Positions 2,738-20,638 of a stretch of DNA of 24,053 nt are shown one piece after another. This stretch comes from a virus. Below the pieces are notes generated by a model, which ran no database searches, was not told the origin of the DNA, and saw only the letters and a program-made list of their open reading frames with translations. The stretch's first letter is position 1. The number at the start of each line of letters is the position of its first letter. The translations under genes and the position numbers were made by a program. The stretch lies in IMG/VR virus record IMGVR_UViG_3300017593_000141, positions 1 to 24,053 of that record. One strand, given 5' to 3'.

Positions 2738-3901
2738 ATGGGAAATAGTGTTATAAATAATAAATTGTTGTTACAATATCTTTCAGCCGCAGGTGCTGAT
2801 ATTGCCAGTGGTAATCCAATAGGGCAAAATATAAATGCTGTAACACAACAACAGATAGGTGCTCAGAGTAAAGTAGATCTAATGAAAAAGATGCTTAGTG
2901 GGTTTTTATCATCTGGTGGAAAAATGTCTGTTGATGGTAAAGGAATTAATCTTCAAATACCACATATGCAAAGTTCGAATCAAACTCAGGGTGTTCAGAA
3001 TCAAGTTTCGCAAATTGCTCAGAGTGGTGTTCAAGGAGCTAATGTTAATAATAATGAAACAGGAGCTGGTCAAATCAATAGTTATTTCATGAATTTATTA
3101 TCGAGTTTCTTAAACCCTAAACAAGGCCAGTTAGAAAACATTACGCCTGATGATCTAGCTGGCCTTTCATCTTCAGACGTTTCTCAGGCGTTGCAAGGTG
3201 CTATTGATATCAGAAATTTAAGCAGAGAACGTCTAAATGCTGTTGTTAATGCTTTGTATAAGAATAAGTTAATGAACTATTATGATACATTGATAGGTAA
3301 AGAAACTCCATCTGTTACAATCCCTGGAACTGATATTAAACTTACAAGAAATGAATTCTTAGAATGGTACAAGAATGCTCAAAAAGATGAACGGACAGCT
3401 GCTATTAAAAACTTTGAATATGCAAAGCAGAATGGCTTTAAAGGTTCATTTGAAGATTTCTTAGGACGTGTTAAGACTACTCACCAAAAAGATTATGAAT
3501 ACTACGTTGAACAAGAAAAGAAAATGGGTAGAGAACCTGAGCCTTTTAATAAATGGTTGTTGGATGTAGCAAAGGCTGGAGGTATTAGTATTGGTGAACT
3601 AATCGGACGTAAAAAATCTATGGCCAATATAGCTGGGCAATTATACTTTAAAGATCCTAAATGGGTAGATGATTTAGATAAATACCTCAATTCTGAATCT
3701 GTGCAGTATGATATAGCTATGTCGGACGATGAAGAGTTAGCTAAAGCAAGAGAAGCTGTTATATATATAGAAAATAAAATAAAAGCAGGTGGTGGAAGAA
3801 TTTTGAAAAATGAATTATCTAAAGATGGAAGGACAATGACTTGGGTAGTTAAATGGCCTTCTGGAGATAAGGAGACTATCAAACATGATATCAGGCCTTG
3901 A
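2738..3901 (+). CDS. Probable internal virion protein, function unknown
   Basis: 387 residues, starting 8 bases after the previous stop behind a strong AGGAGG placed close (about 4-5 bases) to the ATG. The N-terminal half is low in charge and rich in Gln, Asn, Ser and Gly (about residues 20-115, e.g. QTQGVQNQVSQIAQSG), while the rest is charged and helical with many Lys, Glu, Asp and Tyr. No enzyme motif is recognised. Its last 17 bases overlap the start of the giant gene, whose ribosome binding site (GGAGATAAGGAG) lies inside this gene, so the two are probably translated together. The context points to an ejection or core protein; this is inference from position only. Confidence 0.45.
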   Translation: MGNSVINNKLLLQYLSAAGADIASGNPIGQNINAVTQQQIGAQSKVDLMKKMLSGFLSSGGKMSVDGKGINLQIPHMQSSNQTQGVQNQVSQIAQSGVQGANVNNNETGAGQINSYFMNLLSSFLNPKQGQLENITPDDLAGLSSSDVSQALQGAIDIRNLSRERLNAVVNALYKNKLMNYYDTLIGKETPSVTIPGTDIKLTRNEFLEWYKNAQKDERTAAIKNFEYAKQNGFKGSFEDFLGRVKTTHQKDYEYYVEQEKKMGREPEPFNKWLLDVAKAGGISIGELIGRKKSMANIAGQLYFKDPKWVDDLDKYLNSESVQYDIAMSDDEELAKAREAVIYIENKIKAGGGRILKNELSKDGRTMTWVVKWPSGDKETIKHDIRP

Positions 3902-6900
3902 TTTACTTAAAAATGAAGATAACAACAAAAATTCTGAAATCTCTGGACTTGATTTACTTAAAAGTAGAGAAAGTGAAAATGAAATTACTGGATTAGATTT
4001 ATTAAAAGATAAAACAAATTCCGCAGAACAATCACCTGAGGATAAGCTTGTAGAGCCTATAAGAAAAAAATTAAAAGAAGATGCTGTAAAAGATGATCTA
4101 AATAGTTCTGTGTTTAGCAGATATTTGACTCAGAAAATATTTCCTTCTATGGGCAAAGTTCCTTATGCTAGTGGGTATGACAGAGTTGAGCCATTAGAAT
4201 ATGGTATACATAACATGCCTGAACAGTCTATAATTGACAGATTAAAAGGCTGGTGGTATAATCCCGATGTTTCATCTAATAAAGCAAAAAATATAGTTGC
4301 TATTTCTGAACTTACAGGTATAGCACCTACTGAAGTACTTAGAAATTATGATGAATTATCTGCGAAATTATTTCCAGGTGCTTTAGTAAATCCTGGAAAG
4401 AAATTTACTGAAGGTGCTATGAATATGGGAGTAGGTATAGGATTGTTAACTAATCCTTTAGCCACTGCCTCAGCGGTAGGTACATTCTTCGGACTTGATG
4501 AATTAGAGAATTTGATAGTTTCTAAGTTAAAAGATAAACCTTATGAATTTCAAAGAGGTTTAGGAGTAGCTGATTTGTTAGAAGCTGAAGGTTTATCGAG
4601 AGATGCTCTTGAATTGTTAGACTTTGCTTGGAAAATTCCAGCTGTTGGATCTACTACAAGAATGGGCAGAGGTTTGCTTGGAGAAGTTGTTAAGAGGATT
4701 AAAGATAAAGGGAGTAAAATAAAGTTTATTAATAAAGTTAGTAAAGAAGTAAAAGAATCTGGCAAAGCACCTGATGAAGTAATTGTTGAAAAAGCTAAAG
4801 ATTTAGATATTGATTTAGAAACTATTGAAAAAGCTCATAAGAAAATTCTTGAGGTTGAGAAAGATAGAATTGCTTTAGAACCTGACAAATTCAAGAGTTG
4901 GATTGAAGAAGATTTAAGTATAAAGAATGCTAAAATTTTGAAAATTAAGCAAGCTAAAAAATATATTCTTGACGAGGCAGTTGATAAAGCTATAAGGAAA
5001 TTACCTGAGGGTAAGAATGTAAGAGGTTTAAATAAACTAAAAAAACCTGAACAGAATATCAAAGATTTGTATGAGTTAGATATGAAAACTGGTGAAAGAG
5101 AACCTATTGAATTTAGCACTGAAAAGTCGCCATTTAGAGAGCATGACAAAGATGCAACATCCGCTATGACAAAAATTTATCAAGAACATGAAAGATCTAT
5201 TTATGAAGATCCTGAGTTATTTACTGGTAAATTAGTTAATGATGTTAATAGATGGCTTGATGGAGATAGAAAAATACCTATTAGAAAAGTAAGGAAAGGT
5301 TTAAGTGAGTTGGCAGCAAAAGCTGATGAATTGAAAGACTTCTTTTATGAAAGTAATGAATATCCAAGTAATTTTATTAACTGGAAAGAAATGGTTGTAG
5401 AGGCTGCAAAATGGGCTAGGAAAGCTAAAAGAAAAAGTGTTGAGGAAGATGGTTCAAAATTTGAACAGTCTGGTGTTAAACTCAACATGATGATTCCTCT
5501 CGATGAAATCCCTAAAGTTGTAAAAAATTTCTTGAAACTTCCAAAGGTGATTGCTAGAGATGTTTATAGAAATAAAGAATTATTTACAAAAACTGGCTTT
5601 TGGCTTGGAAGAGATGGTAAATGGAGATTTGAGATAGATGATAGTAAAGTAAAGGTGAAACCAAATACAGCATGGACTCGAAAAGATAAATTTGGAGTAT
5701 ATGCAAAAAAAGATGCAACTATTAAGGATATTATAGATTATCCTGAATTATTTAAAGCTGTTCCTGAAGCTAAAGATATAAAAATAGAATATGGACCTCA
5801 TCTGCCTATGACTAATGTTGAAGCAGATTATGACTCTGCACGTAATGTAATAAGTTTCTATGGACGTCCTGAAAAGTATTCTATTCTTCACGAACTTCAA
5901 CATGCTGTGAATGATATAGTTGGGTCTAAATTTCTTGGAACTAATACAAATATTGAGAAAAGAAAATTAGAGGCCAAAAACACTTTACGAATACTTAAAA
6001 AGATAAGGCCTGAAGCTAAAAATGCAGAAATGGCAAGATTTATAGATCAAAATATTGAAAAAATTGAGAAGGATCTATCTAACAAAGCATATATTAAAGA
6101 TTGGCTACACTGGATGAATAGTAAATTTACAAAGTACGCCAAATCATTAGGAGAATCTGAAATAGCGTCAATTACTAAAATTCCCATAGAAGTTTCTACA
6201 GAGAATGCATTTAAATCTTATTTGAAAGACCCTGGAGAAATGGAAGCTAGGTTGGTCAACAAAAGAATGGATATGACTGCTAAGGAAAGGAAAAGAATTC
6301 CACCTTGGAAAACATTAGATGAAATGTTAATTACTGAAGGCCTTGGAGAGCAAAAACCAGGAGAATTTTTATATAGCGGGATTCCTACGAATAAAATAAA
6401 AGATGAGGTAATAAAACTTTATAAAAGCGCTAAGAAAAAAGGTGAGGAAGCAAGAGGGATTAAAGAACTTAAGTTTAAAAAATCTATTAAAAATGCAGTA
6501 GAGGAATATAACAGAGCTTTTATTGATAGGTCTGGGAATATCAGGAAAAGTTTAATCAAGAATTTAAAAAAAGATGGATATAAAATAGTTCAGTTATTAA
6601 CTCTTGCAAAAGGCGCTAATGCTAAATCTGCTGAAGTATTTAGACAAATGCAAAGGGAAGTTTACAATGGATTGAGTAAGAAGGAAAAGAAAATACTTGA
6701 TGATATAATATTTCATAGTAGGATTCTTGATATAGCAAAGTATAAAACAGAGAAGGATTTTAAAGAATTAAAAAAATATCCTCCAGAGGAAAGTGCTGCT
6801 TATTTGGAAATGTTTAGTGAAATGGAAGGGCTTTCGGAAGAAAGAGCTAAGGAACTATATCATGTAAATGAAGATGGTACAATAGGTGGAAGGGCAGGTG

Positions 6901-9161
6901 CTTATTTTGAATGGATGAGGTATGCATTAGAAGATATGTTAAATTCTGGATTGATTTCTGAAAAAGAATTTGATGAGTTAGTTAAGCATAATTATAGGAG
7001 ATTGAAAATAGCTGATGTAATTGATGAGGAAATTCCATCGCTGTCGAAAAAGAAAAAAATTAGTGTTTATGATTCTGGAGTTGAATCTCTTGCAAAGGGA
7101 CAAACAACAACTATTTTTGATAGAGATTCTAGAATAATGGCTTTAGAGGTTTTCAATAGAGCTTATGGCAGAATATTTAGAAACGAAGCTAATAAAAATT
7201 TAATTGAAGTAGCTAAAAAACATCCTGAGAATCCATTTGCTAGAGTAAGAGGAAAGAAAGATATTAAATCGGAGAAGAAGAAAGGTACTAAATCAGGAAA
7301 AAAGAAAGGTACTACAATTCCAAGAGGTTGGACTAGAATATATGCATTTGAAGATGGTAAAAGAAAAACTCTTTACATTTCACCTAAAATGTCAAAGGAA
7401 TGGTTAACAAATGATCCTGAAATGACATACAAGCTTAGTAATTTTATTAGATGGGCAAGTGGTTCTGCATTGTTAAGAACATTTGCTACAGGAATTAACT
7501 GGGGTTTTGCTTTAGCTAATTTACCAAAGGATGCTTTACATACTTGGATGGTAGCTAGAATTTTTGACGATGGAGAATGGAAGAGTGTTTATAGTCCTCA
7601 TTTTCCTGAATTTACACTACAAATTACTGGTGATTACCTTCGTGTGTTTAGAGATGCTTTGTTAAGAAAGGGTAGGTATATAGATTATATAAACGAAGGT
7701 GGTGGTATGGAATTTCTGGTTCATCAAGGTAGATTGTTTAAAAAGGGTAGGCATATAGAAAGTAAATTGGACAAAGTTCAGAATGTACTTGCTTACCCAG
7801 GTGAAACAAGTGAGTTGATGACTAGGTTGGCAATACGAGAGAGGGTTATTAGAAGGAGGGCTAAAGAATTAGGAATCAGTGTTGAGAAAGCTAGGAAGAA
7901 CAAAGATGTGACGAGAGAAGCTACGTTTGCTGCAAGAGATTATCTGGATTTTAGCCAGGGTGGTTGGCTGGTTAAATCTCTTGATAATGCAGTACCTTAT
8001 CTCAATGCATCTGTGCAAGCTACAAGAGGTTTATTTAGAGCTTTGAAGGATGATAAGTTAGTAGGGATGTATAAGTTAGCGCAATTAGCTGTTTTAGTTT
8101 CTGGAATTTATATCAATGGTAAAGTAAAAGATCCTAAAACAATGAGGGAATTGCAAGGATCAATAGATATGGAGAATAACATTTGTATTCCATTAGGTGA
8201 TCAATTCTCGTTTGTTGATAGTAGGGGGAATACAAGATATGTTTATTTGAAAGTTCCTATAGATTCATCACAGAAATTTTTTAAAACTTTCTTTGAAGCT
8301 TCTACGGATAAGTGGTTAGGAAATGAGTTTGATGTAGATAGAGTTGTTAAAGCACTTAAGTGGTTAAGCCCTGTTGATATTTCTAGCTTACCACCTACAT
8401 TTAGTGCATTAGTTGGTTATGTTACTAATAAAAACTTTTGGACAAATGAAGATATTTGGAAACGCACTGAGGCAAATGATTTTCCTAAGAGTAAGGAAGA
8501 ATTTATTCCTGGGAGGACGCCACAGTTGTATATTGACATAGGTAAAGTGACAGGCCTTTCACCGGAAAGAATGAAATATGCTGTTGAGGAATTAGTTACT
8601 AATGGAACAGTTTGGTCTTATTTACTTAATGGAGGTTATGAGAAAGCTTTTGGTGAATTTCCTAAGGGGAATAAAGAACAGCATTTAGCTGAGATTTTAC
8701 ACAGAATGCCAATGCTTAAGAGATTCATAGGAGTTACTAACCCTTATGTTAAGTATAGTAAGAAATTAAAGAAAGTTAAAAAAGATAATGAGTTGGAAAG
8801 GTTTGTTCAAAATAGAGGACTTGATTTAAGAGCTGAGGGTTATATCTTTGATGGAGATTATTCAAGGAAACAGGTTATAGATTATATTAAGAGTTTTAAA
8901 GACCTTGATGTAAGAAAGAGATTGTTGGATAGATTTGAATTTATTAAGAAGACAAAGAATTTAAAGAATAGGACCCTATGGATTACTTTGAAAGATTTAT
9001 CTCCAGAGGCAAGAGCTAAGTTTTATGTAGATGCTTTAAATAATGCCTCTGGAAATGAAAAGGAAGAATTGAAAAAAGAACTTGGGAAAGTTAGAGTAAT
9101 AAGTGGAATTGTTAGTCCTAGGTTTCTTCGTGAGGTGGGGAGGCTTCAGAAGGGGAAATAG
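3885..9161 (+). CDS. Giant virion-associated polyprotein-like protein with metallopeptidase-like domain
   Basis: 1758 residues, the largest gene here. The N-terminus has three near-identical octapeptides (residues 2-9, 19-26, 34-41), followed by long Lys/Glu-rich helical stretches. At residues 669-673 is HELQH, an HExxH zinc-peptidase motif in the context YSILHELQHAVND; GEMEAR at 784-789 supplies a plausible third ligand Glu, followed by MTAKERKRIPPW. This combination is known from large phage polyvalent proteins. A Lys-rich repeat lies near residues 1132-1144. The later part, with TSELMTRLAIRERV and then AARDYLDFSQGG and VPYLNASVQATRGLF, resembles the LPD38-type segment of such proteins. No lysozyme or polymerase motif was recognised. 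It is likely packaged in the virion and injected, with the peptidase acting on virion or host proteins. Its 3' end overlaps the opposite-strand gene by 44 bases. Confidence 0.65.
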   Translation: MISGLDLLKNEDNNKNSEISGLDLLKSRESENEITGLDLLKDKTNSAEQSPEDKLVEPIRKKLKEDAVKDDLNSSVFSRYLTQKIFPSMGKVPYASGYDRVEPLEYGIHNMPEQSIIDRLKGWWYNPDVSSNKAKNIVAISELTGIAPTEVLRNYDELSAKLFPGALVNPGKKFTEGAMNMGVGIGLLTNPLATASAVGTFFGLDELENLIVSKLKDKPYEFQRGLGVADLLEAEGLSRDALELLDFAWKIPAVGSTTRMGRGLLGEVVKRIKDKGSKIKFINKVSKEVKESGKAPDEVIVEKAKDLDIDLETIEKAHKKILEVEKDRIALEPDKFKSWIEEDLSIKNAKILKIKQAKKYILDEAVDKAIRKLPEGKNVRGLNKLKKPEQNIKDLYELDMKTGEREPIEFSTEKSPFREHDKDATSAMTKIYQEHERSIYEDPELFTGKLVNDVNRWLDGDRKIPIRKVRKGLSELAAKADELKDFFYESNEYPSNFINWKEMVVEAAKWARKAKRKSVEEDGSKFEQSGVKLNMMIPLDEIPKVVKNFLKLPKVIARDVYRNKELFTKTGFWLGRDGKWRFEIDDSKVKVKPNTAWTRKDKFGVYAKKDATIKDIIDYPELFKAVPEAKDIKIEYGPHLPMTNVEADYDSARNVISFYGRPEKYSILHELQHAVNDIVGSKFLGTNTNIEKRKLEAKNTLRILKKIRPEAKNAEMARFIDQNIEKIEKDLSNKAYIKDWLHWMNSKFTKYAKSLGESEIASITKIPIEVSTENAFKSYLKDPGEMEARLVNKRMDMTAKERKRIPPWKTLDEMLITEGLGEQKPGEFLYSGIPTNKIKDEVIKLYKSAKKKGEEARGIKELKFKKSIKNAVEEYNRAFIDRSGNIRKSLIKNLKKDGYKIVQLLTLAKGANAKSAEVFRQMQREVYNGLSKKEKKILDDIIFHSRILDIAKYKTEKDFKELKKYPPEESAAYLEMFSEMEGLSEERAKELYHVNEDGTIGGRAGAYFEWMRYALEDMLNSGLISEKEFDELVKHNYRRLKIADVIDEEIPSLSKKKKISVYDSGVESLAKGQTTTIFDRDSRIMALEVFNRAYGRIFRNEANKNLIEVAKKHPENPFARVRGKKDIKSEKKKGTKSGKKKGTTIPRGWTRIYAFEDGKRKTLYISPKMSKEWLTNDPEMTYKLSNFIRWASGSALLRTFATGINWGFALANLPKDALHTWMVARIFDDGEWKSVYSPHFPEFTLQITGDYLRVFRDALLRKGRYIDYINEGGGMEFLVHQGRLFKKGRHIESKLDKVQNVLAYPGETSELMTRLAIRERVIRRRAKELGISVEKARKNKDVTREATFAARDYLDFSQGGWLVKSLDNAVPYLNASVQATRGLFRALKDDKLVGMYKLAQLAVLVSGIYINGKVKDPKTMRELQGSIDMENNICIPLGDQFSFVDSRGNTRYVYLKVPIDSSQKFFKTFFEASTDKWLGNEFDVDRVVKALKWLSPVDISSLPPTFSALVGYVTNKNFWTNEDIWKRTEANDFPKSKEEFIPGRTPQLYIDIGKVTGLSPERMKYAVEELVTNGTVWSYLLNGGYEKAFGEFPKGNKEQHLAEILHRMPMLKRFIGVTNPYVKYSKKLKKVKKDNELERFVQNRGLDLRAEGYIFDGDYSRKQVIDYIKSFKDLDVRKRLLDRFEFIKKTKNLKNRTLWITLKDLSPEARAKFYVDALNNASGNEKEELKKELGKVRVISGIVSPRFLREVGRLQKGK
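3888..4007 (+). repeat. Three ISGLDLLK-type octapeptide repeats at the giant protein N-terminus
   Basis: Residues 2-9 and 19-26 read ISGLDLLK and residues 34-41 read ITGLDLLK, separated by charged variable linkers (starts 17 and 15 residues apart). The amino acids are conserved while codons differ (for example CTTGATTTACTT versus TTAGATTTATTA), which suggests selection on the peptide rather than a recent DNA duplication. Confidence 0.85.
7278..7314 (+). repeat. Short lysine-rich direct repeat in the giant gene
   Basis: The 13-base unit AAGAAAGGTACTA occurs twice, at 7278-7290 and 7302-7314, 24 bases apart and in frame. It codes for a Lys/Gly/Thr-rich low-complexity linker (KKGTKSGKKKGTT) between two globular parts of the giant protein. 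Confidence 0.7.
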
Positions 9162-11364: not shown

Positions 11365-13884
11365 TTATGTACATTTAATTTCCCTTTCATTCAATAGTTT
11401 ATTATAAACTTCTTTTAACTTTGTAGTTAGTTTATCTACATTAGAAGGAATTTCTTTACTCTTCAATTCAATCATGTCTTCTTTACACATATTGAATCCA
11501 ATAGATAAATCGGCAGGTGTTTTTATTTCTCTATCGTGCCAATAAAGAGGTTGTTCGATAGAATTTTTTATTAAAAGTAACATCTTAGCATGTTCTTCCC
11601 AGGGAATTGTTAAAGGAATTTGAAAAACTACTGAGTCATGTATTTGAGTTAATAATTCCAGTGGTTTAAACAAGTGTTGGTTGTAATAGATGAATTCAAC
11701 GCCTTGTTCATTTACTTTGTCAGCAACAGTACTTTGAGCAAAGTGTGCGTAAGCTTCACGATAGGTACTTACGCAAGCACTTAAAGGAACGTTGGGTGGG
11801 CTAGGAATTATAGGTCCTAGGAATAACCTTCTGCGACCGAATAGATTTGTTACTATTCTATTTTTCTTAAGCATCTTTTGTATTATCTGATGATAACCAT
11901 TTCTTATTTGTGGATAGCCCCTGTGAATATTCTCGATTATGAATTTAGCTTCACTTTCAGACATTTCATTTTTAAGAGCAAATGTTTTATAGCCAATATC
12001 ATAGTTGGTCGCGTGATTAGTCTTCTTTCCCCAATAGCGTTCGGATTGTCTTCCATCGCCGAGAGAAGAAGAACCATCTTCTGCTGAGATTTGATCATAA
12101 GGTTTGCCAAAAAGAATTGAGGCTGAAAGCCTATGTAAATCAATGCCTTGTTCAAAGGCTTTTATTTGTTCTACTACTCCACCAACATAAGCTACGATTC
12201 GATTTTCTATCTGTGATAAGTCGAAAGAATAACCTATATAACCTTCATCGAAGAGAAAAAAGCGTAATATGTCATGAGGTATATTCTGTTGGTTTCCTCC
12301 AGTTCCAAATATAGTTGCTCCACTTGAAATCCTTCCAGTTTCAGCACCTACAGGTTTGTATGAAGAACGATATCGCCCGTCTTGGTCAACTTTTCCGATG
12401 TTAAGATAAGTAGAAATACGTTTTGATAAAGATCTAATGTCCAACATTAGACGAGCAACTTTTGATCCAGGGCCTCCAGCCCGAAAGATTCGTTTTAAAG
12501 CGTCAACGTCAGTAGATGCTTTGCCAGTCTTTCGATTGATGTAAGGACGTAAATGTAATTTGTTGTAAAAAAATTCTTTTAATTGCTTTGGTGAGTTGTA
12601 GTTTATTTCGTAACCTACTTCACGATTTAACTCTTCAGCGAGATTTTCTAATTCCGCTTGTTGACTATTTTTATATTTTAACATTTCTTCGACATCAATT
12701 CTGATTCCTCGCTCTGACATGTAAATTAAAGGTTTTATTAACTTCCTCTGACGTTCATAGGTTTCCTCATTAAGTTGTTTTGAAAGAATTTGGAATTGCT
12801 TTGGTAATGCTTCTACAGGAATTATAGCATCCATTCCATTATAGTTCCACCACTCCTCCCATGAACCACTGCCCATCTTCATCCACTGTTTTCCGTCTTC
12901 CTTGTAATATGGTACGTCAGTGTGCATAGTTGTTACAAAATCTAATCCGGCAGGGAAGTCTGGAAAAGATATTTTTTGTGCTATTTGTGTACAGTGTAGA
13001 TCACCACGAGGAATGATTCCATATTTGCGGAATAAGAATTGAGTATCGAAGATGAAATTAGCACCGACTTTAGGTATTTTTTCTTCTTGGATTATTTTAG
13101 CTATAAACAACATTATTTCGTACTCTTGATCAGGTGTGAAATAATCACCTTGTTGATAACGGAATGGGATAGATATTGAATTTAAATTAGACCAAGAAAA
13201 TGAGATACAGTCAAGTTCGCCGTTTATAACTTCGATATCAATACCTATTGTTTGACCCCTTAGACCAATATCGTAGCAGTGAGCTAGTGTGGAGATAGCT
13301 TCGTTGAATGTAGGTTTTATTATAATATTTCGAGATAGTCTTTTAACGTGGTGAAATTCACTTTCGTGTTTAGCTTTTGTTAAATCTTCACAAATTAAAG
13401 GTTTGTTTAAGTATTTGAACTTAGGAGGGATAAATGTAGCTGGGTGAAAAGTAGGGATTACTTTTAATTCTGGAATTATTGTAGAAGTTATTACAGAACC
13501 CCTCCATTTTGTTATACCTATGCGATTTGTAAGAGCTAACAACGCTATGTTTCCGCAAGCTACTACGACATTTAAGTTTGGTAATTTACTTAGTTCGTTA
13601 GCTAATTCTTGTATATACTGATAACCGTCGTCAGATATTTTCCAATTCCCTCTTGTTCCAAGATCTATGTAATGTTTGAGAGGGAAATCTAGATCTTTAA
13701 TTACGTTGGTTAGGTAGATGCTTGATCTCGGAATTTTGGCAATAGCTAGACATTCATCTAAGCCTCTTCCAGCAGGACCTATGAATGGCCTATGGAGTTT
13801 TATCTCTTGAAAACCTGGCTGTTCACCAACTATTGCTAATTTAGCATTTAGATCACCTGAAGGTGGGACAAATGTTCTTTTCAT
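11365..13884 (-). CDS. DNA polymerase A with N-terminal uracil-DNA-glycosylase-like domain
   Basis: 839 residues. The N-terminal ~190 residues are UDG family 4/5-like: GEQPGFQE at 20-27, RPFIGPAGRGLD at 32-43, and TFHPATF later; the N-terminal cysteines of a Fe-S-type family 4 enzyme are not seen. A complete 3'-5' exonuclease follows: D216-x-E218, N276-xxx-D280, and Y348-xxx-D352, so proofreading should be intact. Polymerase motif A is D555-L-S-Q-I-E; motif B is R616...K620...H624...Y628; motif C is H749-D750-S. In motif B the residue after the Tyr is Asp where Gly is usual. GGGAG lies 7 bases before the ATG. It is the main replicative polymerase; the fused glycosylase may recognise or repair uracil at the fork. 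Confidence 0.93.
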   Translation of the reverse strand: MKRTFVPPSGDLNAKLAIVGEQPGFQEIKLHRPFIGPAGRGLDECLAIAKIPRSSIYLTNVIKDLDFPLKHYIDLGTRGNWKISDDGYQYIQELANELSKLPNLNVVVACGNIALLALTNRIGITKWRGSVITSTIIPELKVIPTFHPATFIPPKFKYLNKPLICEDLTKAKHESEFHHVKRLSRNIIIKPTFNEAISTLAHCYDIGLRGQTIGIDIEVINGELDCISFSWSNLNSISIPFRYQQGDYFTPDQEYEIMLFIAKIIQEEKIPKVGANFIFDTQFLFRKYGIIPRGDLHCTQIAQKISFPDFPAGLDFVTTMHTDVPYYKEDGKQWMKMGSGSWEEWWNYNGMDAIIPVEALPKQFQILSKQLNEETYERQRKLIKPLIYMSERGIRIDVEEMLKYKNSQQAELENLAEELNREVGYEINYNSPKQLKEFFYNKLHLRPYINRKTGKASTDVDALKRIFRAGGPGSKVARLMLDIRSLSKRISTYLNIGKVDQDGRYRSSYKPVGAETGRISSGATIFGTGGNQQNIPHDILRFFLFDEGYIGYSFDLSQIENRIVAYVGGVVEQIKAFEQGIDLHRLSASILFGKPYDQISAEDGSSSLGDGRQSERYWGKKTNHATNYDIGYKTFALKNEMSESEAKFIIENIHRGYPQIRNGYHQIIQKMLKKNRIVTNLFGRRRLFLGPIIPSPPNVPLSACVSTYREAYAHFAQSTVADKVNEQGVEFIYYNQHLFKPLELLTQIHDSVVFQIPLTIPWEEHAKMLLLIKNSIEQPLYWHDREIKTPADLSIGFNMCKEDMIELKSKEIPSNVDKLTTKLKEVYNKLLNEREIKCT

Positions 13885-13949: not shown

Positions 13950-14012
13950 ATCGACTTTTACTATGAATGAATCTTTGTAGGATTTTCCTAGTTCAAAACC
14001 CACAGCGGCATT
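13932..14012 (-). pseudogene. Out-of-frame C-terminal tail of the ParB-methyltransferase gene
   Basis: In the -1 frame relative to the upstream gene, re-reading one base at codon 414 (GGA) gives Asn and then AAVGFELGKSYKDSFIVKVD and five more residues before a TGA at 13934-13932. G-F-E-L-xxx-Y is the normal closing segment of adenine/cytosine-N4 methyltransferases after the FxGSG motif. The in-frame product instead stops after the unrelated PLWVLN. A one-base deletion (for example a lost A in GGAAT), a sequencing error, or a frameshift during translation would explain it. No canonical slippery heptamer was found. Confidence 0.75.
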
Positions 14013-15253
14013 CCTAGTTTGTGTGCACTTATTAAACCATTACCTGAGCCAAGGAAAGGAATTAAAATTCTTGAACCGACAGGAGTGAAGGTTTCATAAA
14101 GATAATCTGTTAATTCAATAGGTCTTTCTGTCTCATGAGTTTTTTGACTGGGTGGAATAGGTGGATATTGAAAGATGTTTGACCTGCCAGGTTTATTAAG
14201 CGTCGGGCGACCTTTCCAAGCGTAGAAGAATAACTCATATGAATTAGCAAGATATATTTCTGGTCTTCTAGATTGACCTGTAGATTTAACCCAACAGCCA
14301 CACATTCTTGTAGTTGAAAAACCTGCATTTTTTATTTCTTGATAAACTACTTCAAACCAAGGTTCTGGAGCAAACCAGCAGATGAGCCAACTGTGGGGAG
14401 CCATAACTCGGTAACATTCACTTAGTAATTTTGACAAGAAAGTTTGATATTCATTAGCAGGTATTTCATTGTAGTTATTTGTTACATATTGAGATACACC
14501 AGTGGATTTTTTAACTTGTTTTAAATCAATAGCATAAGGCGGGTCTATTTCGACAAGGTGCATTACTTCATTAGGTATATCTTTTACACCTTCAAAAAAG
14601 TCTTTTAAGATAAAACTTCGAATGAGTTGCTGGAGCGTTGTGTTAGAATGTTGTTTTTCTATTTTCTGTGCTATGGTTTGCTTCAGTAATTCCTCATCGA
14701 GTTTTTTTAATACTTTTGTAGCATCACTTTGCGTTTTACAGTGTTCAAACAATTCAGGGACTGCCTCCATAGCTTCAGCACGTTTTATGGCTTGAGAGAC
14801 TGTAGCTTTGGAAACACCACCTATTAAATTGCCAGTGTCTTCAACTGACCAGCCAGAATTTCCAGGGCCTGGAGCTTTTACTCCATGAAGTTCTTGTTGA
14901 AGTTTGTGGATTTCAAGAGTTAGCTTATCTAACTCATACCACTCCATGTCTTTACGGAAAAAGTTTTCGGATTTTTCTATTACCTTCATCTCGATGTTTG
15001 AAAGATTTCTGTCGTAAATTCTAACAGGTACTTGTTTTACGTTGTTTTTCTTTAGTATTGTTAACCTGCGTTCGCCAGCGAGAAGAGTGTAAGTTCCATC
15101 GTTGTTATCTTTTACAGCAATAGGAGATATTAAACCACTTTCCTTCATATTCTGTTCAAGCGATTCAAGATCACCCATTTCCTTACGGGCACGATCTTTG
15201 ATTATTATAGAATTTGTGGGAACCATTCCTACCTTTCCAACTTTGATAGACAT
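13988..15253 (-). CDS. ParB-like nuclease domain fused to DNA methyltransferase, C-terminus frameshifted
   Basis: 421 residues as read, 440 if the frame is restored. Residues 1-105 are a ParB/Spo0J N-terminal domain with LLAGERRLTIL (GERR at 60-63). A helical, HTH-like part follows (SKATVSQAIKRAEAM, about 145-165). The second half is an amino-methyltransferase: motif IV D237-P-P-Y240 and, near the end, motif I FLGSG at 400-404, i.e. the permuted order in which the catalytic motif comes first. It would methylate adenine N6 or cytosine N4 at sites in phage DNA; the ParB part may read DNA or cleave it. The normal last strand and helix are shifted out of frame after residue 414, so the protein may be weakened. 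GGAGG precedes the ATG; a small basic gene ends 3 bases upstream. Confidence 0.85.
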   Translation of the reverse strand: MSIKVGKVGMVPTNSIIIKDRARKEMGDLESLEQNMKESGLISPIAVKDNNDGTYTLLAGERRLTILKKNNVKQVPVRIYDRNLSNIEMKVIEKSENFFRKDMEWYELDKLTLEIHKLQQELHGVKAPGPGNSGWSVEDTGNLIGGVSKATVSQAIKRAEAMEAVPELFEHCKTQSDATKVLKKLDEELLKQTIAQKIEKQHSNTTLQQLIRSFILKDFFEGVKDIPNEVMHLVEIDPPYAIDLKQVKKSTGVSQYVTNNYNEIPANEYQTFLSKLLSECYRVMAPHSWLICWFAPEPWFEVVYQEIKNAGFSTTRMCGCWVKSTGQSRRPEIYLANSYELFFYAWKGRPTLNKPGRSNIFQYPPIPPSQKTHETERPIELTDYLYETFTPVGSRILIPFLGSGNGLISAHKLGMPLWVLN

Positions 15254-15464: not shown

Positions 15465-15710
15465 TTAATCTCCTTTTAATTGATCAACTTTGTTTAATGA
15501 AGGGAGGACTTTTCTAGGTTTTATTTTCCCACTTATTATTAAACCTATAGCCATACCTCCGTAGTCTTCGACTAAGTCAAGGACATCGTCTAAGATTATG
15601 TTAAATAGAGCTTTTCTTAGACCATAGGTTCCTAGTAATTTTTGAGTCCTAAGTTGCTGTTCTTGAGAAATTTCGAAACTGAATCTAGGAATATAATCTT
15701 CGTTTGACAT
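15465..15710 (-). CDS. Small conserved phage protein, possible ribbon-helix-helix regulator
   Basis: 81 residues. RFSFEISQEQQLRTQKLL followed by GLRKALFNIILDDVLDLVEDYGG and then GLIISGKIKPRKVLP fits a strand, helix, helix pattern, as in ribbon-helix-helix proteins, where the strand pair in a dimer reads DNA. The type is familiar from other phages, with no known function. A strong GGAGG lies 5-6 bases before the ATG, and a copy of the 20-base palindromic element lies directly upstream. That makes it one candidate for a regulator acting on these elements, though this is inference only. Confidence 0.55.
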   Translation of the reverse strand: MSNEDYIPRFSFEISQEQQLRTQKLLGTYGLRKALFNIILDDVLDLVEDYGGMAIGLIISGKIKPRKVLPSLNKVDQLKGD

Positions 15711-15748: not shown

Positions 15749-16921
15749 TTACCATTTTATTGTAGGGTTTATTACTTCTTTTTTTATCCTATCTTTGTAA
15801 TGAGATAGAGTTTTTAAAATCGAAGTTATTTCTGGTTCGAGGTAGGTAGTTGCTTTGTAACCTAAGGATTTTAAGTTATTATTTGAAGTGTTATAGTAAT
15901 GTTCTTCGAGTTCCTTTCTTGGATTTTTTAAGTAGTTTATTTCAAAAGATGTTTTTAAACCTAGTTCCAATGTACACTTTTTTACCAAAAATGCTAGGTC
16001 ATTGATATTATGAATAATAGCATATTGGTTAAAAGTTCTATATTCACCTTCTTTTGGAGGATTTTTTATAGCAAGAGTTATACAATTTAAGGAGTCTTTA
16101 AGAGTTAAAAATCCACGAGTTTGGTTTCCTCTTCCATAGATTGTTAAGGGATGATTTGATAAAACTTGTGCACAAAAACGATTTACTACAGTTCCAAAAC
16201 ATTGGTCGTAGTCAAAGCGAGTTATTTCCTCTATTGAATCGACATTGTTTAAGCCTATTACAATACCTTGCATTATGTCAGTGGAACGTAACTTCCAATT
16301 ACGGCAAGCGAATTCGATGTTATAAGTATCATGAACTTTTGAGAGGTGGTAAAAAGATCCAGGAATTCTAGGGAATAACAAACCTTGCATTGGACAGGTA
16401 ATGTTGTGATTTTTTAGACATTTTTCAGGAATTGTACCTTCTGGGATTGGACAGTTAGGAGTTCCATACTCGCCCATTGATCCTAATTTTATTAAGTGTG
16501 CTTTAGGACAATTTTTTCTTATAGCCCAAAGAAGTTGCAAAGTACCTATTGTGTTTCTTGTTTGTGTTTCAACAGAGTTGTAAACATCTTTCATTGACCA
16601 GGGCGCAGAAGGTTGCTCGGCAAGATGGACTATGGTGTCTGGTTCAAAAGATGCTAGAACGCTATTTATGTAATGGAAAGAGTCATTTCCAAGAGATAAA
16701 TCAACTTGGTCAATGAAATTAGGAAATGATTTTAAGTATTTAATTCTTTCAAATACATCGAGGATAGGTGTTAAAGAATCACTGCCGATTTTAGATACTC
16801 TTTCACGTCTGGAATAATCGTCTGCTCCAAATACTTTGAAATTTTCCTTTAGTAATTTAATGGTTAGAGCATAACCTATATATCCATCATTTCCGAGAAT
16901 TAAAATTTTATGATCTTTCAT
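15749..16921 (-). CDS. UDP-sulfoquinovose-synthase-like NAD-dependent epimerase/dehydratase
   Basis: 390 residues, an extended short-chain dehydrogenase. The NAD-binding GNDGYIG is at residues 10-16. Strong resemblance to the SQD1/UDP-sulfoquinovose synthase subgroup: LAEQPSAPWSM at 100-110, TQTRNTIGTLQLLWAI, LGSMGEYGTP at 146-155 (Ser148 where SQD1 enzymes have Thr), and FYHLSKVHDTYNIEFACRNW with the catalytic Y191 and K195. In plants, algae and bacteria these enzymes turn UDP-glucose and sulfite into UDP-sulfoquinovose for sulfolipids. In this phage the product may instead go to a surface glycan or to DNA; a different nucleotide sugar is possible. ATG overlaps the dCMP deaminase stop by 4 bases (ATGA), so the two are coupled. 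Confidence 0.8.
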   Translation of the reverse strand: MKDHKILILGNDGYIGYALTIKLLKENFKVFGADDYSRRERVSKIGSDSLTPILDVFERIKYLKSFPNFIDQVDLSLGNDSFHYINSVLASFEPDTIVHLAEQPSAPWSMKDVYNSVETQTRNTIGTLQLLWAIRKNCPKAHLIKLGSMGEYGTPNCPIPEGTIPEKCLKNHNITCPMQGLLFPRIPGSFYHLSKVHDTYNIEFACRNWKLRSTDIMQGIVIGLNNVDSIEEITRFDYDQCFGTVVNRFCAQVLSNHPLTIYGRGNQTRGFLTLKDSLNCITLAIKNPPKEGEYRTFNQYAIIHNINDLAFLVKKCTLELGLKTSFEINYLKNPRKELEEHYYNTSNNNLKSLGYKATTYLEPEITSILKTLSHYKDRIKKEVINPTIKW

Positions 16922-17460
16922 ATTTCAAAACTCCTTATTTTTATACCTGATTCTTTACACAGAATTTCAGAATAATTATCGTAAAATTTTTCTTCAGTTA
17001 CTACAATTTCCTTCACTCCGGCGTTTATGAGAGTGCCTAGGCATCTTTGACAAGGGATTATGGAGTTTAGATATAAAGTGCTATTGAATATATATACTCC
17101 ATTTTTAGCTGCATTAGTTACAGCATTTTCTTCTGCATGTTGGGCTAAACAATATCGTAGACCTTCACCACTTTTATACGCCATCAAGCGTCGTGGACAA
17201 GTGTTGGAGATTACATCTTCAGGAAATAACTCTTTTAAATCAGGGAGATTTTTATCTTTTAAAGCACGTTCTTTTCCACAGTGGAAAATTCCAGAAGGAG
17301 GGCCATTGTAGCCTGTTGATAAAATTGTGTTGTTTTTAGCTATTACAGCACCTATTTTTCGAGATAAGCAGGGTGACCTTAAAGATATAGTGTTACAAAG
17401 TTTGTAAAAATAACTGTCCCATTTAGAGTTAGGTGTTTTTGGAGAATTTAAATTATTCAT
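16918..17460 (-). CDS. dCMP deaminase (ComEB-like deoxycytidylate deaminase)
   Basis: 180 residues. The zinc-binding cytidine deaminase motifs are complete: H108-A-E110 in the segment LAQHAEENAV and P-C137-Q-R-C140. YNGPPSGIFHCG near residues 50-61 and the CPRR segment before the HAE motif are typical of deoxycytidylate deaminases, which often carry extra zinc ligands. It converts dCMP to dUMP and so feeds thymidylate synthesis; the phage carries no visible thymidylate synthase in this window. AAGGAG precedes the ATG, and the gene is coupled to the sugar enzyme gene through an ATGA overlap. With the NTP-pyrophosphohydrolase-like gene upstream it forms a nucleotide-pool group. Confidence 0.92.
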   Translation of the reverse strand: MNNLNSPKTPNSKWDSYFYKLCNTISLRSPCLSRKIGAVIAKNNTILSTGYNGPPSGIFHCGKERALKDKNLPDLKELFPEDVISNTCPRRLMAYKSGEGLRYCLAQHAEENAVTNAAKNGVYIFNSTLYLNSIIPCQRCLGTLINAGVKEIVVTEEKFYDNYSEILCKESGIKIRSFEI

Positions 17461-17975: not shown

Positions 17976-18395
17976 TTATCTTGGAGCTATGTATTTTGTA
18001 ACAGTGTTTTGTTCCCCGTAGTCATCATCTTTCTTTATCCCAAGAATTACCCAGCCTTCGAGACCAATAAGATCATCAGTCCAACTGAAAGGTTTTGTAT
18101 AGTCAATACCAAAAGCATCGGCAAAAGTTTTGAATTTATAGACGGAACGCTGAGCATTTTTTTCATCAAGTTTACTTGCATCTGCGAGATCCCAGAAGAA
18201 ATCCCTAAACTCAATCACCATTGGGTCGTCAGGTACGTCGAAAACAGGCATGTACCAATGAGCTCCGTTTTTGTCGGAGATTCCTTCATTTACATTGATG
18301 ATTCTGGCCTTTACCTCTGAACCACGAGGAAGAACTTTTGGCTCAGGTGCTTCTGCTATTGCTTGCTCAAGATCGGAGTAATCGACTAAAGACAT
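17976..18395 (-). CDS. DUF669-like putative single-stranded DNA-binding protein
   Basis: 139 residues. RGSEVKARIINVNEGISDKNG followed by WYMPVFDVPDDPMVIEFRDFFW and a final TVTKYIAP strand fits an OB-fold-like beta layout. The family is like phage DUF669 proteins, which often sit next to Sak4-type ATPases and are thought to bind single-stranded DNA. The acidic tail typical of SSBs is not clear. GGAGG precedes the ATG. It follows the unknown helical gene and the Sak4-like ATPase gene, consistent with a recombination or replication partner. The fold and role are inferred from pattern and context. Confidence 0.6.
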   Translation of the reverse strand: MSLVDYSDLEQAIAEAPEPKVLPRGSEVKARIINVNEGISDKNGAHWYMPVFDVPDDPMVIEFRDFFWDLADASKLDEKNAQRSVYKFKTFADAFGIDYTKPFSWTDDLIGLEGWVILGIKKDDDYGEQNTVTKYIAPR

Positions 18396-18799: not shown

Positions 18800-19624
18800 T
18801 TAATCAATTTTCAAAGGTGGCTTATCATCCCATTTTAAGCCAGCTTTTCTCAACAAACCTTTTATATTAGGTTCTTCGACAGAAGATAGTTTACTGTTAG
18901 CTTTGAGTCTAGAACGGGCGATATAAGTACCGGAAGAATCTATGAGCATTTTCCTTTTTAACCCTCTTGGAGATTCTTCAGCGATTAATACATAGATTTC
19001 ATCGAAAAGTAAAGGTATTGTTACTACAGCTTGACCAGTGGTGTAGAAACGGTATTTTATGTTTTTTCTAGTTATGCCAGTTTTTAGGTCTACACTTATT
19101 TTATCTTCGATTGCTCGCAAGTGGCCAGTTAAGATGAAATCGCAAGGGATGGACATTAATTTCTTTATATAATTAACCATCATAGTTTTTTGTGGCATGT
19201 AGTCTTTGCCCCAGTTAGGTGCTTCACCTGCCTGTCCACGTGAATTTAGTTGATAGTTCATTATAGCATCTCCGAATGTTGTAGCACTGTCGATACAGTA
19301 AGTTCCAAAATGATCGAAGTAGTTTAACCTCATTCGGAGGTCAACAGTTTTCATCCATTCTGCGAATTTGTTTGGCTTTAATGGATCATCAGATTCCCAC
19401 TGTGTATCGGCAATTACTTCACCTTTTTCAATCAAGTCTCGAAGGCACTTTGTTCCACCAGGGTCGAAAGAATCTATGTGAATAGGCTTGCGGGCAGTTC
19501 TTAATAAATAAGTTTTTCCAGCATTAGTTTCTCCAGTTATTAGGGCACTAAAGCGCTTTTGTAACGGGTCGCCTTCGTAGTAAGACTTTACTTTTTTTAA
19601 CTCGTTCATGTAATCATAAGGCAT
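18800..19624 (-). CDS. Sak4-like AAA ATPase, putative single-strand annealing/recombination protein
   Basis: 274 residues. Walker A GETNAGKT at residues 31-38 begins a short RecA-like core, followed by PIHIDSFDPGG, a strand YCIDSATTFGDAI (Walker B-like) and FILTGHLRAIED (a sensor-like Gln/His region). This is the phage nucleotide-binding AAA_24/Sak4 type, which helps anneal or pair DNA strands with an SSB. C-terminal residues are basic (RKAGLKWDDKPPLKID). AAGGAG lies 9 bases before the ATG. Next to a RecB/Cas4-like nuclease and a DUF669-like protein it makes a plausible recombination set: resect, coat, anneal. The exact activity is inferred. Confidence 0.75.
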   Translation of the reverse strand: MPYDYMNELKKVKSYYEGDPLQKRFSALITGETNAGKTYLLRTARKPIHIDSFDPGGTKCLRDLIEKGEVIADTQWESDDPLKPNKFAEWMKTVDLRMRLNYFDHFGTYCIDSATTFGDAIMNYQLNSRGQAGEAPNWGKDYMPQKTMMVNYIKKLMSIPCDFILTGHLRAIEDKISVDLKTGITRKNIKYRFYTTGQAVVTIPLLFDEIYVLIAEESPRGLKRKMLIDSSGTYIARSRLKANSKLSSVEEPNIKGLLRKAGLKWDDKPPLKID

Positions 19625-19654: not shown

Positions 19655-20638
19655 TTACCAAGTTAGATTCTTTTCCACTGAAGATTCTATTTTTGAAGGA
19701 TCCCAGAATTCAACTTTAAATCCAATAGGTGGTTCTTCACACCGTTGTAGTGGATTAGGCCAGGAGATACAATAGTCGTGAAAAGCACAGCCGAAGTATT
19801 TAGTGCAATTATTAGGCCTCATTGGAAAAGACATTAGAATAGATTCATTTTCAGAAGATTCGAATAATCTATTCATTTCCCTTTCGATGGAATCTAGAAT
19901 GTCAACAACTGTCCATAACCAAGTGTTCATTTGATCAGGTGTTTTAAATGCAGGGACTCGTTCTAAAGTTATGTTATAACCTTTTGAATTTTTAGAACCG
20001 CCACGAGTTAGGTAAGAAAAACTTGTTCCACAGAATTCTACGCCTAAGACTTGTTCGATAGGGAACATACAATAAAGGCAGTGTGTGTAAGTTCCGTTTT
20101 GAATACTTAGTTGAAACTTATCACGCCAAAATCTGGAGAACCTTTTCGCTGATTTATGATCCCAAGAGAAAATCTTACCATCGGACTTTCTTCTCATGAT
20201 TGAATCAAGGCGATAATGAAGGACACGTTTAGAATCGACTGGAACAGTTCCGGAAATTTCCAGCATTTTTGTTCCATCTATTTCAACAACCTCGTTTTCG
20301 ATTAAGTCGGAAGAACGTTCTTCAGAAAATTTCATTAAAGCATTTAATACACCAGTTGGGTCTTTTGGTCGGTAAAGATTGTCCGTGTCAGGTGGAAATT
20401 CTTTCCGATAGTGTTCGATAAAAGCGTTGTAGGCACCTTCTATATCATTGTAGCCGTAGCGAAGTTGATGTTCCCTGGCCTTGTGCCAAGATTCACCAAA
20501 GTAAGCATCGTGATTTGGTAAGTTTAATTTCCAACCTAGGATGTGTTCAAAGAAATATTTTCTTGGACAATCAAGGAAAGTTTCTATCTTTGAAGAGTCT
20601 ATTATTTTCCACTCTTTTTGTTCTTTTAAAGGAATCAT
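19655..20638 (-). CDS. PD-(D/E)XK nuclease of the RecB/Cas4 type
   Basis: 327 residues. KIETFLDCPRKYFFEHI at the N-terminus is the usual RecB/Cas4/AddB opening with Cys24. The catalytic part is W-D160-H-K162 followed by Q180-N-G-T-Y184 (QxxxY), the RecB-family active site. Three cysteines near the C-terminus (NCTKYFGCAFHDYC, spaced C-x5-C-x5-C) together with Cys24 could hold an iron-sulphur cluster as in AddB and Cas4, with unusual spacing. It would degrade DNA ends or make 3' or 5' overhangs for the Sak4-like ATPase. GAGGT lies 7 bases before the ATG. The gene's first 68 bases overlap the preceding small gene. No Cas1/Cas2 or array is present, so a CRISPR role is not suggested. Confidence 0.82.
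   Translation of the reverse strand: MIPLKEQKEWKIIDSSKIETFLDCPRKYFFEHILGWKLNLPNHDAYFGESWHKAREHQLRYGYNDIEGAYNAFIEHYRKEFPPDTDNLYRPKDPTGVLNALMKFSEERSSDLIENEVVEIDGTKMLEISGTVPVDSKRVLHYRLDSIMRRKSDGKIFSWDHKSAKRFSRFWRDKFQLSIQNGTYTHCLYCMFPIEQVLGVEFCGTSFSYLTRGGSKNSKGYNITLERVPAFKTPDQMNTWLWTVVDILDSIEREMNRLFESSENESILMSFPMRPNNCTKYFGCAFHDYCISWPNPLQRCEEPPIGFKVEFWDPSKIESSVEKNLTW

Follow-up and report, generated by a model that had tools for sequence, protein, structure and literature searches.

A proline-variant SQD1-like enzyme of uncultured phages and its putative role in virion protein O-glycosylation

The SQD1-like gene and its surroundings

The window, a stretch of 24,053 nucleotides of viral DNA, carries a gene for an SQD1-like nucleotide-sugar enzyme within a block of conserved genes on the minus strand:

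11365..13884, minus strand: DNA polymerase A with an N-terminal uracil-DNA-glycosylase-like (UDG) domain, block gene (PF00476 and PF03167, the latter at 4e-14)
13988..15253, minus strand: ParB-like/DNA N4-N6 methyltransferase fusion, block gene (PF02195 and PF01555; in 21/21 near-complete relatives)
15465..15710, minus strand: conserved 81-aa protein, in most relatives encoded after the SQD1-like gene (46 viral loci, gene order)
15749..16921, minus strand: SQD1-like NAD-dependent nucleotide-sugar enzyme, Pro variant, 390 aa with an ATG start (NF041015, PDB SQD1, AF2 model)
16918..17460, minus strand: dCMP deaminase (PF00383, 6e-17; ATGA overlap with the SQD1-like start)
17976..18395, minus strand: conserved 139-aa block protein (51 viral loci)
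18800..19624, minus strand: RecA-like NTPase (AAA_24), block gene (PF13479)
19655..20638, minus strand: PD-(D/E)XK nuclease (Cas4-like), block gene (PF12705)

An earlier note on this DNA had placed the SQD1-like open reading frame at exactly 15749-16921, without giving its strand. The ATGA coupling to dCMP deaminase that it described is present as a 4-base overlap, and its placement of the gene in a replication/nucleotide block also holds. The block order is conserved in ~45 contigs: nuclease, RecA-like NTPase, 139-aa protein, usually dCMP deaminase, SQD1-like gene, 81-aa protein, ParB-methyltransferase, PolA with the UDG domain, and primase. In phages of the L003, L004, and L052 type, which have homologous tail genes, the SQD1-like gene instead adjoins the capsid gene. 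The one capsid-side genome seen whole (G015) has no dCMP deaminase. The DNA-metabolism setting is thus a location rather than a demonstrated function, and it looks incidental.

Relatives of the SQD1-like gene are found on at least 113 viral contigs, and the gene occurs widely in one family of uncultured phages of ~45-51 kb. An identical copy lies on a second contig (the window being L001 and the second contig L006). No record in the INPHARED set of isolated phages matches the protein. Comparisons between relatives gave dN/dS values of 0.07-0.19, showing purifying selection on the protein.

Family assignment, predicted fold, and phylogeny

The window protein is a member of the SQD1 superfamily by sequence, predicted fold, and phylogeny. 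The NCBIfam model NF041015 (UDP-sulfoquinovose synthase) matches it over its full length with 437 bits, while the next family reaches 34 bits. The best PDB sequence match is Arabidopsis SQD1 (E 8e-96). An AF2 model (pLDDT 93) superposes on SQD1 (1qrr) with a TM score of 0.92 and an E-value of 1e-48, against 3e-22 for the next structure. Full-length homology and the SQD1 fold, both hallmarks of a UDP-sulfoquinovose synthase, are thus present, as are the three motifs quoted in the earlier note (EQPSAPWSM, LGSMGEYGTP, and FYHLSKVHDT). Ordinary UDP-glucose 4-epimerases and NDP-glucose 4,6-dehydratases were rejected as candidates, as the galE and rmlB models score 22-34 bits compared with 437 for NF041015, and epimerase and dehydratase structures match with E-values of 1e-19 to 1e-22 compared with 1e-48 for SQD1. 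The proposal of an SQD1-like enzyme rather than a common epimerase or dehydratase is therefore borne out by the family model, PDB match, structure match, and phylogeny.

The score of 437 bits is below the curated NF041015 cut-off of 575 bits. This cut-off is also failed by Rhodobacteraceae SqdB-like proteins (339 bits), and it is exceeded by thaumarchaeal proteins L333 and L334 (603-612 bits) despite their lacking the arginine discussed below. We consequently rejected the cut-off as a decisive test of membership.

In the phylogeny, a single clade (SH-aLRT 97) unites replication-block phage genes (including the window), capsid-side phage genes (L003/L052), and one further viral sequence, L050. 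A larger supported clade (100) encloses this phage clade, all but one pair of the sequences with the window's proline, and the arginine-bearing Agl3-type enzymes. The window protein is thus placed within the superfamily, in one clade with Agl3-type enzymes, among Pro-type sequences of putative function.

Replacement of an arginine essential in Agl3

Catalytic positions were compared by aligning 214 distinct homologues of viral and cellular origin, 106 representatives of which were used for column comparison. The following sites were located in the window by this alignment:

16337..16351, minus strand: YxxxK catalytic motif, Tyr191-His-Leu-Ser-Lys195
16478..16480, minus strand: Ser148, in the place of Thr145 in the Ser/Thr-Tyr-Lys triad of SQD1
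16610..16612, minus strand: codon of Pro104, the counterpart in the alignment of Arg101 in Arabidopsis SQD1 and in Agl3

Nearly all homologues retain His96, Met146, Glu148, Tyr149, Ser180, Tyr182, Lys186, Gln209, and Arg327 (numbered as in the SQD1 alignment). The window protein has the Ser/Thr-Tyr-Lys triad and the [ST]MG-E-Y loop (Ser148, Tyr191, Lys195, Met149, Glu151, and Tyr152), and apart from Arg101 it keeps the other published catalytic residues save for Thr145, which is Ser. The Arg101 position itself is Pro in 64 of the 65 distinct viral sequences (63/64 when the window is set aside). Pro is also found here in Thaumarchaeota and some Chloroflexota; Arg (once Lys) occupies the position in plant SQD1, Thermoplasmata, other Thermoproteota, Rhodobacteraceae, and most Chloroflexota. 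The 106 representatives divide into 72 with Pro, 33 with Arg, and 1 with Lys, with no third residue type. The only other column that separates the Pro-type from the Arg-type groups is a loose Ile/Leu one.

In Agl3, activity is abolished by Ala at Arg101, His95, Met145, Tyr182, or Lys186, while T144A is still active (PMC4388408). That study assigns no sulfite-binding role to Arg101. On the loss of key residues, by which the earlier note would be refuted, the answer is divided and in part against it: the catalytic Tyr, Lys, Glu, Tyr, Ser, and His are kept, whereas Arg101, essential in Agl3, is Pro. Because of this replacement, we withhold the label UDP-sulfoquinovose synthase from the window protein. 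It shares the scaffold of these synthases, and its early chemistry is probably the same.

Sulfoquinovose is the main alternative product. A genuine UDP-sulfoquinovose synthase would use UDP-glucose and sulfite, tolerate Pro at position 101, and lead to sulfoquinovose on the virion or another target. Consistent with this, UDP-sulfoquinovose synthase is the sole full-length family match, SQD1 is by far the closest solved structure, the Pro-type thaumarchaeal proteins score above the NF041015 cut-off, the Pro-type group shares a supported clade with Agl3-type archaeal enzymes, and Agl3 itself feeds protein glycosylation (PMC4388408). Yet R101A inactivates Agl3 (PMC4388408), the window protein stays at 437 bits against the 575-bit cut-off, and the position is invariably Pro in the Pro-type representatives (72/72) and Arg or Lys in the Arg-type ones (34/34), the two groups having been defined by this very column. 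Additionally, the two types coexist, with one protein each, in at least one Anaerolineae genome (G038), which suggests different functions for them. On balance, we consider a true sulfoquinovose synthase fairly unlikely, though the strongest of the rival readings.

Pro-type proteins of viruses, Thaumarchaeota, and some Chloroflexota are annotated as UDP-sulfoquinovose synthases and read as evidence of sulfosugar metabolism. With the arginine essential in Agl3 missing from this group, such annotations, and inferences of viral sulfur metabolism, could be wrong. The residue comparison suggests that the NF041015 annotation of Pro-type thaumarchaeal proteins may be unsafe.

The neighbors of cellular Pro-type genes gave no hint of the product, neither in the Anaerolineae amino-acid operon nor beside the thaumarchaeal membrane GT2. 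In Anaerolineae (L088, L089, and L090), the gene lies among prephenate dehydratase, semialdehyde dehydrogenase-like, and histidinol dehydrogenase genes, with no glycan cluster. In Thaumarchaeota (L092, L093, and L104), it lies upstream of genes for an NPCBM-domain protein and a membrane GT2 (domains called on L092, with matching gene sizes in L093 and L104).

Co-occurrence with a GT2 glycosyltransferase

Portal-based searches yielded 22 near-complete (at least 42 kb) genomes of the phage family, with only one added by the last two portal scans. The SQD1-like gene is present in 16 and absent from 6, and on the core-gene tree it changes state at least six times. A GT2 glycosyltransferase is encoded in 16/16 genomes with the SQD1-like gene and 1/6 without it (Fisher 2.3e-4). 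When the ~90 most widespread gene families were compared, GT2 showed the strongest association with the SQD1-like gene (p 8e-4, on 21 of the genomes). Six tree-independent pairs were available, of which five change in the same direction, none in the opposite direction, and one is a tie; with so few pairs, the sign test value of 0.0625 is the lowest reachable. Among incomplete records, two with the SQD1-like gene show no visible GT2 (G006 and G018) and one has GT2 without the SQD1-like gene (G021).

The GT2 gene belongs to the late module. Its usual place is between an HTH gene and TerL, often with tailspike-like genes nearby. Hydropathy analysis revealed no hydrophobic stretch that would point to a membrane anchor. 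The best PDB matches of its predicted model (pLDDT 79, a moderate confidence) are ppGalNAcT-2 and PGANT9 (E 4e-12, TMq 0.5-0.6), so the relatives' GT2 is predicted to have a GT27-like fold. By sequence, it has no PDB match at E 0.01 and falls in the general GT2 family of Pfam only, with no GT27 homology detected in these searches. In several genomes, a second nucleotide-sugar SDR and a methyltransferase adjoin GT2, and a B12-radical-SAM/GT2 fusion is also among its neighbors. In G004, the partner GT2 lies beside a fusion of a B12-binding radical SAM protein with a GT2 domain (L169:4046-6064) and beside a protein that by eye resembles a methyltransferase-GT2 fusion, with no Pfam match (L169:2829-4049). 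The search for a glycosyltransferase elsewhere in the genome, as the earlier note had advised, was thus successful in relatives.

The dCMP deaminase was rejected as a functional partner. It is present in 12/16 genomes with and 4/5 without the SQD1-like gene, and 0/5 independent pairs change the same way. The link to DNA metabolism drawn in the earlier note accordingly finds no support, as the SQD1-like gene varies together with GT2 and not with dCMP deaminase. These data bear on the possibility that the sugar serves hypermodification of phage DNA bases, for which a place beside dCMP deaminase, polymerase, and DNA methyltransferase would be fitting. The replication-block position is indeed conserved in the ~45 contigs, and phage glycosyltransferases are capable of such modification (Pyle et al. 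2024, as cited in PMC12619734). Nonetheless, replication genes are all equally present in genomes without the SQD1-like gene, no gene of the thymidylate synthase family or for dCMP hydroxymethylase, a sign of base modification, was found in 20 relatives, the gene adjoins the capsid gene in the L003/L052 lineage, and the partner GT2 resembles protein glycosyltransferases. We regard DNA hypermodification as very unlikely.

Remodeling of the host surface is a common role of phage glycosyltransferases. By analogy, the sugar could alter a receptor or mediate superinfection exclusion, and other viral homologues do lie in larger glycan clusters (L002 context). However, the hydropathy profile of the partner GT2 shows no membrane anchor, its gene belongs to the late module close to virion genes, and it is found together with virion-module proteins rich in Thr/Ser/Pro, so that a role at the host surface seems unlikely.

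A viral UDP-sulfoquinovose synthase has been reported as an auxiliary metabolic gene of a Cariaco Basin Mu-like virus and linked to glycosylation in general (PMC7785012). A corresponding function here would be to boost host sulfolipid or glycan metabolism. Against it stand the tight coupling to a phage GT2 and the persistence of the gene across a phage family rather than as a sporadic capture, and no SQDG synthase was noticed in the phage genomes examined; we find this explanation highly improbable. The two genes are alike by description, both being SQD1-like genes on viral contigs. The accessible text of PMC7785012 names neither a glycosyltransferase partner nor an acceptor, and no residue analysis.

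Mucin-like repeats in virion-module proteins

Virion-module proteins of genomes with the SQD1-like gene contain mucin-like repeats, such as PTTLAPTTVAPTT or PSTEVPSTEAPST. We scored these as P[TS][TSE] or P[GA]T motifs per 60 residues, a measure defined after the pattern had been noticed. Scores of 5-13 were obtained in 15/16 near-complete genomes with the SQD1-like gene, while five genomes without it reach 2. The only near-complete genome with GT2 and no SQD1-like gene (G024) scores 6, in a poly-Thr protein near its GT2. Mucin-like repeats are thus found in 15/16 genomes with and 1/6 without the SQD1-like gene, and in 16/17 genomes with and 0/5 without GT2 (p 2.3e-4). The exception is G015, which has the SQD1-like gene and GT2 and no such repeats. 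One repeat protein is encoded next to the capsid gene, at the position usual for scaffolding proteins. When the orthologous scaffold-position gene is considered alone, the difference in repeats is significant (p 0.0014), but the two groups overlap. The poly-Thr protein of G024 (L285:1234-3717) has 827 aa and a poly-Thr/Ser tract of ~300 residues.

Proposed function and comparison with known systems

Because the SQD1-like gene comes and goes with GT2 and mucin-like virion proteins, we favor virion glycosylation, and think it reasonably likely that the enzyme makes a modified form of UDP-glucose, the donor with which phage-encoded machinery would O-glycosylate virion proteins. Host UDP-glucose would be oxidized at C4 with bound NAD and then dehydrated, giving a modified UDP-hexose (5,6-ene or 6-substituted) that is possibly, not certainly, sulfoquinovose. 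The soluble, late-module GT2, with its ppGalNAc-transferase-like predicted fold, would move this sugar onto Thr/Ser in the mucin-like repeats of virion-module proteins, yielding a glycosylated virion. A more specific form of this proposal is a self-contained mucin-type O-glycosylation pathway in uncultured phages, in which an Arg-to-Pro SQD1-derived enzyme diverted from sulfonation to another UDP-6-deoxyhexose acts with a ppGalNAc-transferase-like enzyme and a repeat acceptor. We put this forward tentatively, leaning slightly against it in this full form. If it is true, the gene sets gained and lost together would form a natural knock-out series.

Our literature search, with subscription papers mostly outside its coverage, found no report of an SQD1-like enzyme, GT2, and mucin-like repeats together in phages. 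The window protein shares with Arabidopsis thaliana SQD1 (PDB 1i24/1qrr) full-length homology (~41% identity by structural alignment), the predicted fold, the YxxxK and NAD motifs, and the GEY loop. It differs in Pro104 for Arg101 and Ser148 for Thr145, and in being phage-encoded and outside the sulfolipid pathway. Sulfolobus acidocaldarius Agl3 has the TDI(M)QG motif in common with it, and Pro-type and Agl3-type enzymes share a clade. The Agl3 product goes onto proteins, as proposed for the phage enzyme, whereas the Agl3 type has Arg at position 101.

In mycobacteriophage virions, subunits of the capsid and tail tube are glycosylated at their C-termini (Freeman et al. 2023, cited in PMC12619734). 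Glycans on phage capsid and tail proteins would be the shared feature. For the phages studied here, we propose from genomic association that a dedicated nucleotide-sugar enzyme is involved and that the glycans would be on mucin-like repeats. Polypeptide GalNAc-transferases (GT27), the best structural match of the partner GT2, share its DSH and WGG(G) motifs. Unlike these enzymes, the partner GT2 lacks a PDB sequence match, is too short for a lectin domain, and probably does not use UDP-GalNAc as its donor. Should virion glycosylation hold, these phages would possess a dedicated set of donor-making enzyme, transferase, and acceptor, much like that of mucin O-glycosylation in animals, and relatives lacking the set would serve as natural controls.

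The phage of the window

Neither a GT2 gene nor mucin-like repeats were found in the 24-kb window fragment. Its twin, L006, is 99.98% identical over 12.7 kb. Among 27 records, the tetranucleotide profile closest to that of the window (0.965) belongs to G028, which comes from the same sample as L006 and has relatives like the window's. G028 has repeats in its scaffold-position gene, and its contig stops short of the usual GT2 site. Joining G028 to the window was rejected, as the two have no sequence overlap and are alike only in composition and relatives. G028 may belong with the window's phage, and by inference this phage would encode a GT2. On the plus strand, the window also encodes a very large late-module protein with an LPD23 polyvalent-protein domain (3885-9161; 1758 aa, and up to ~2477 aa in relatives).
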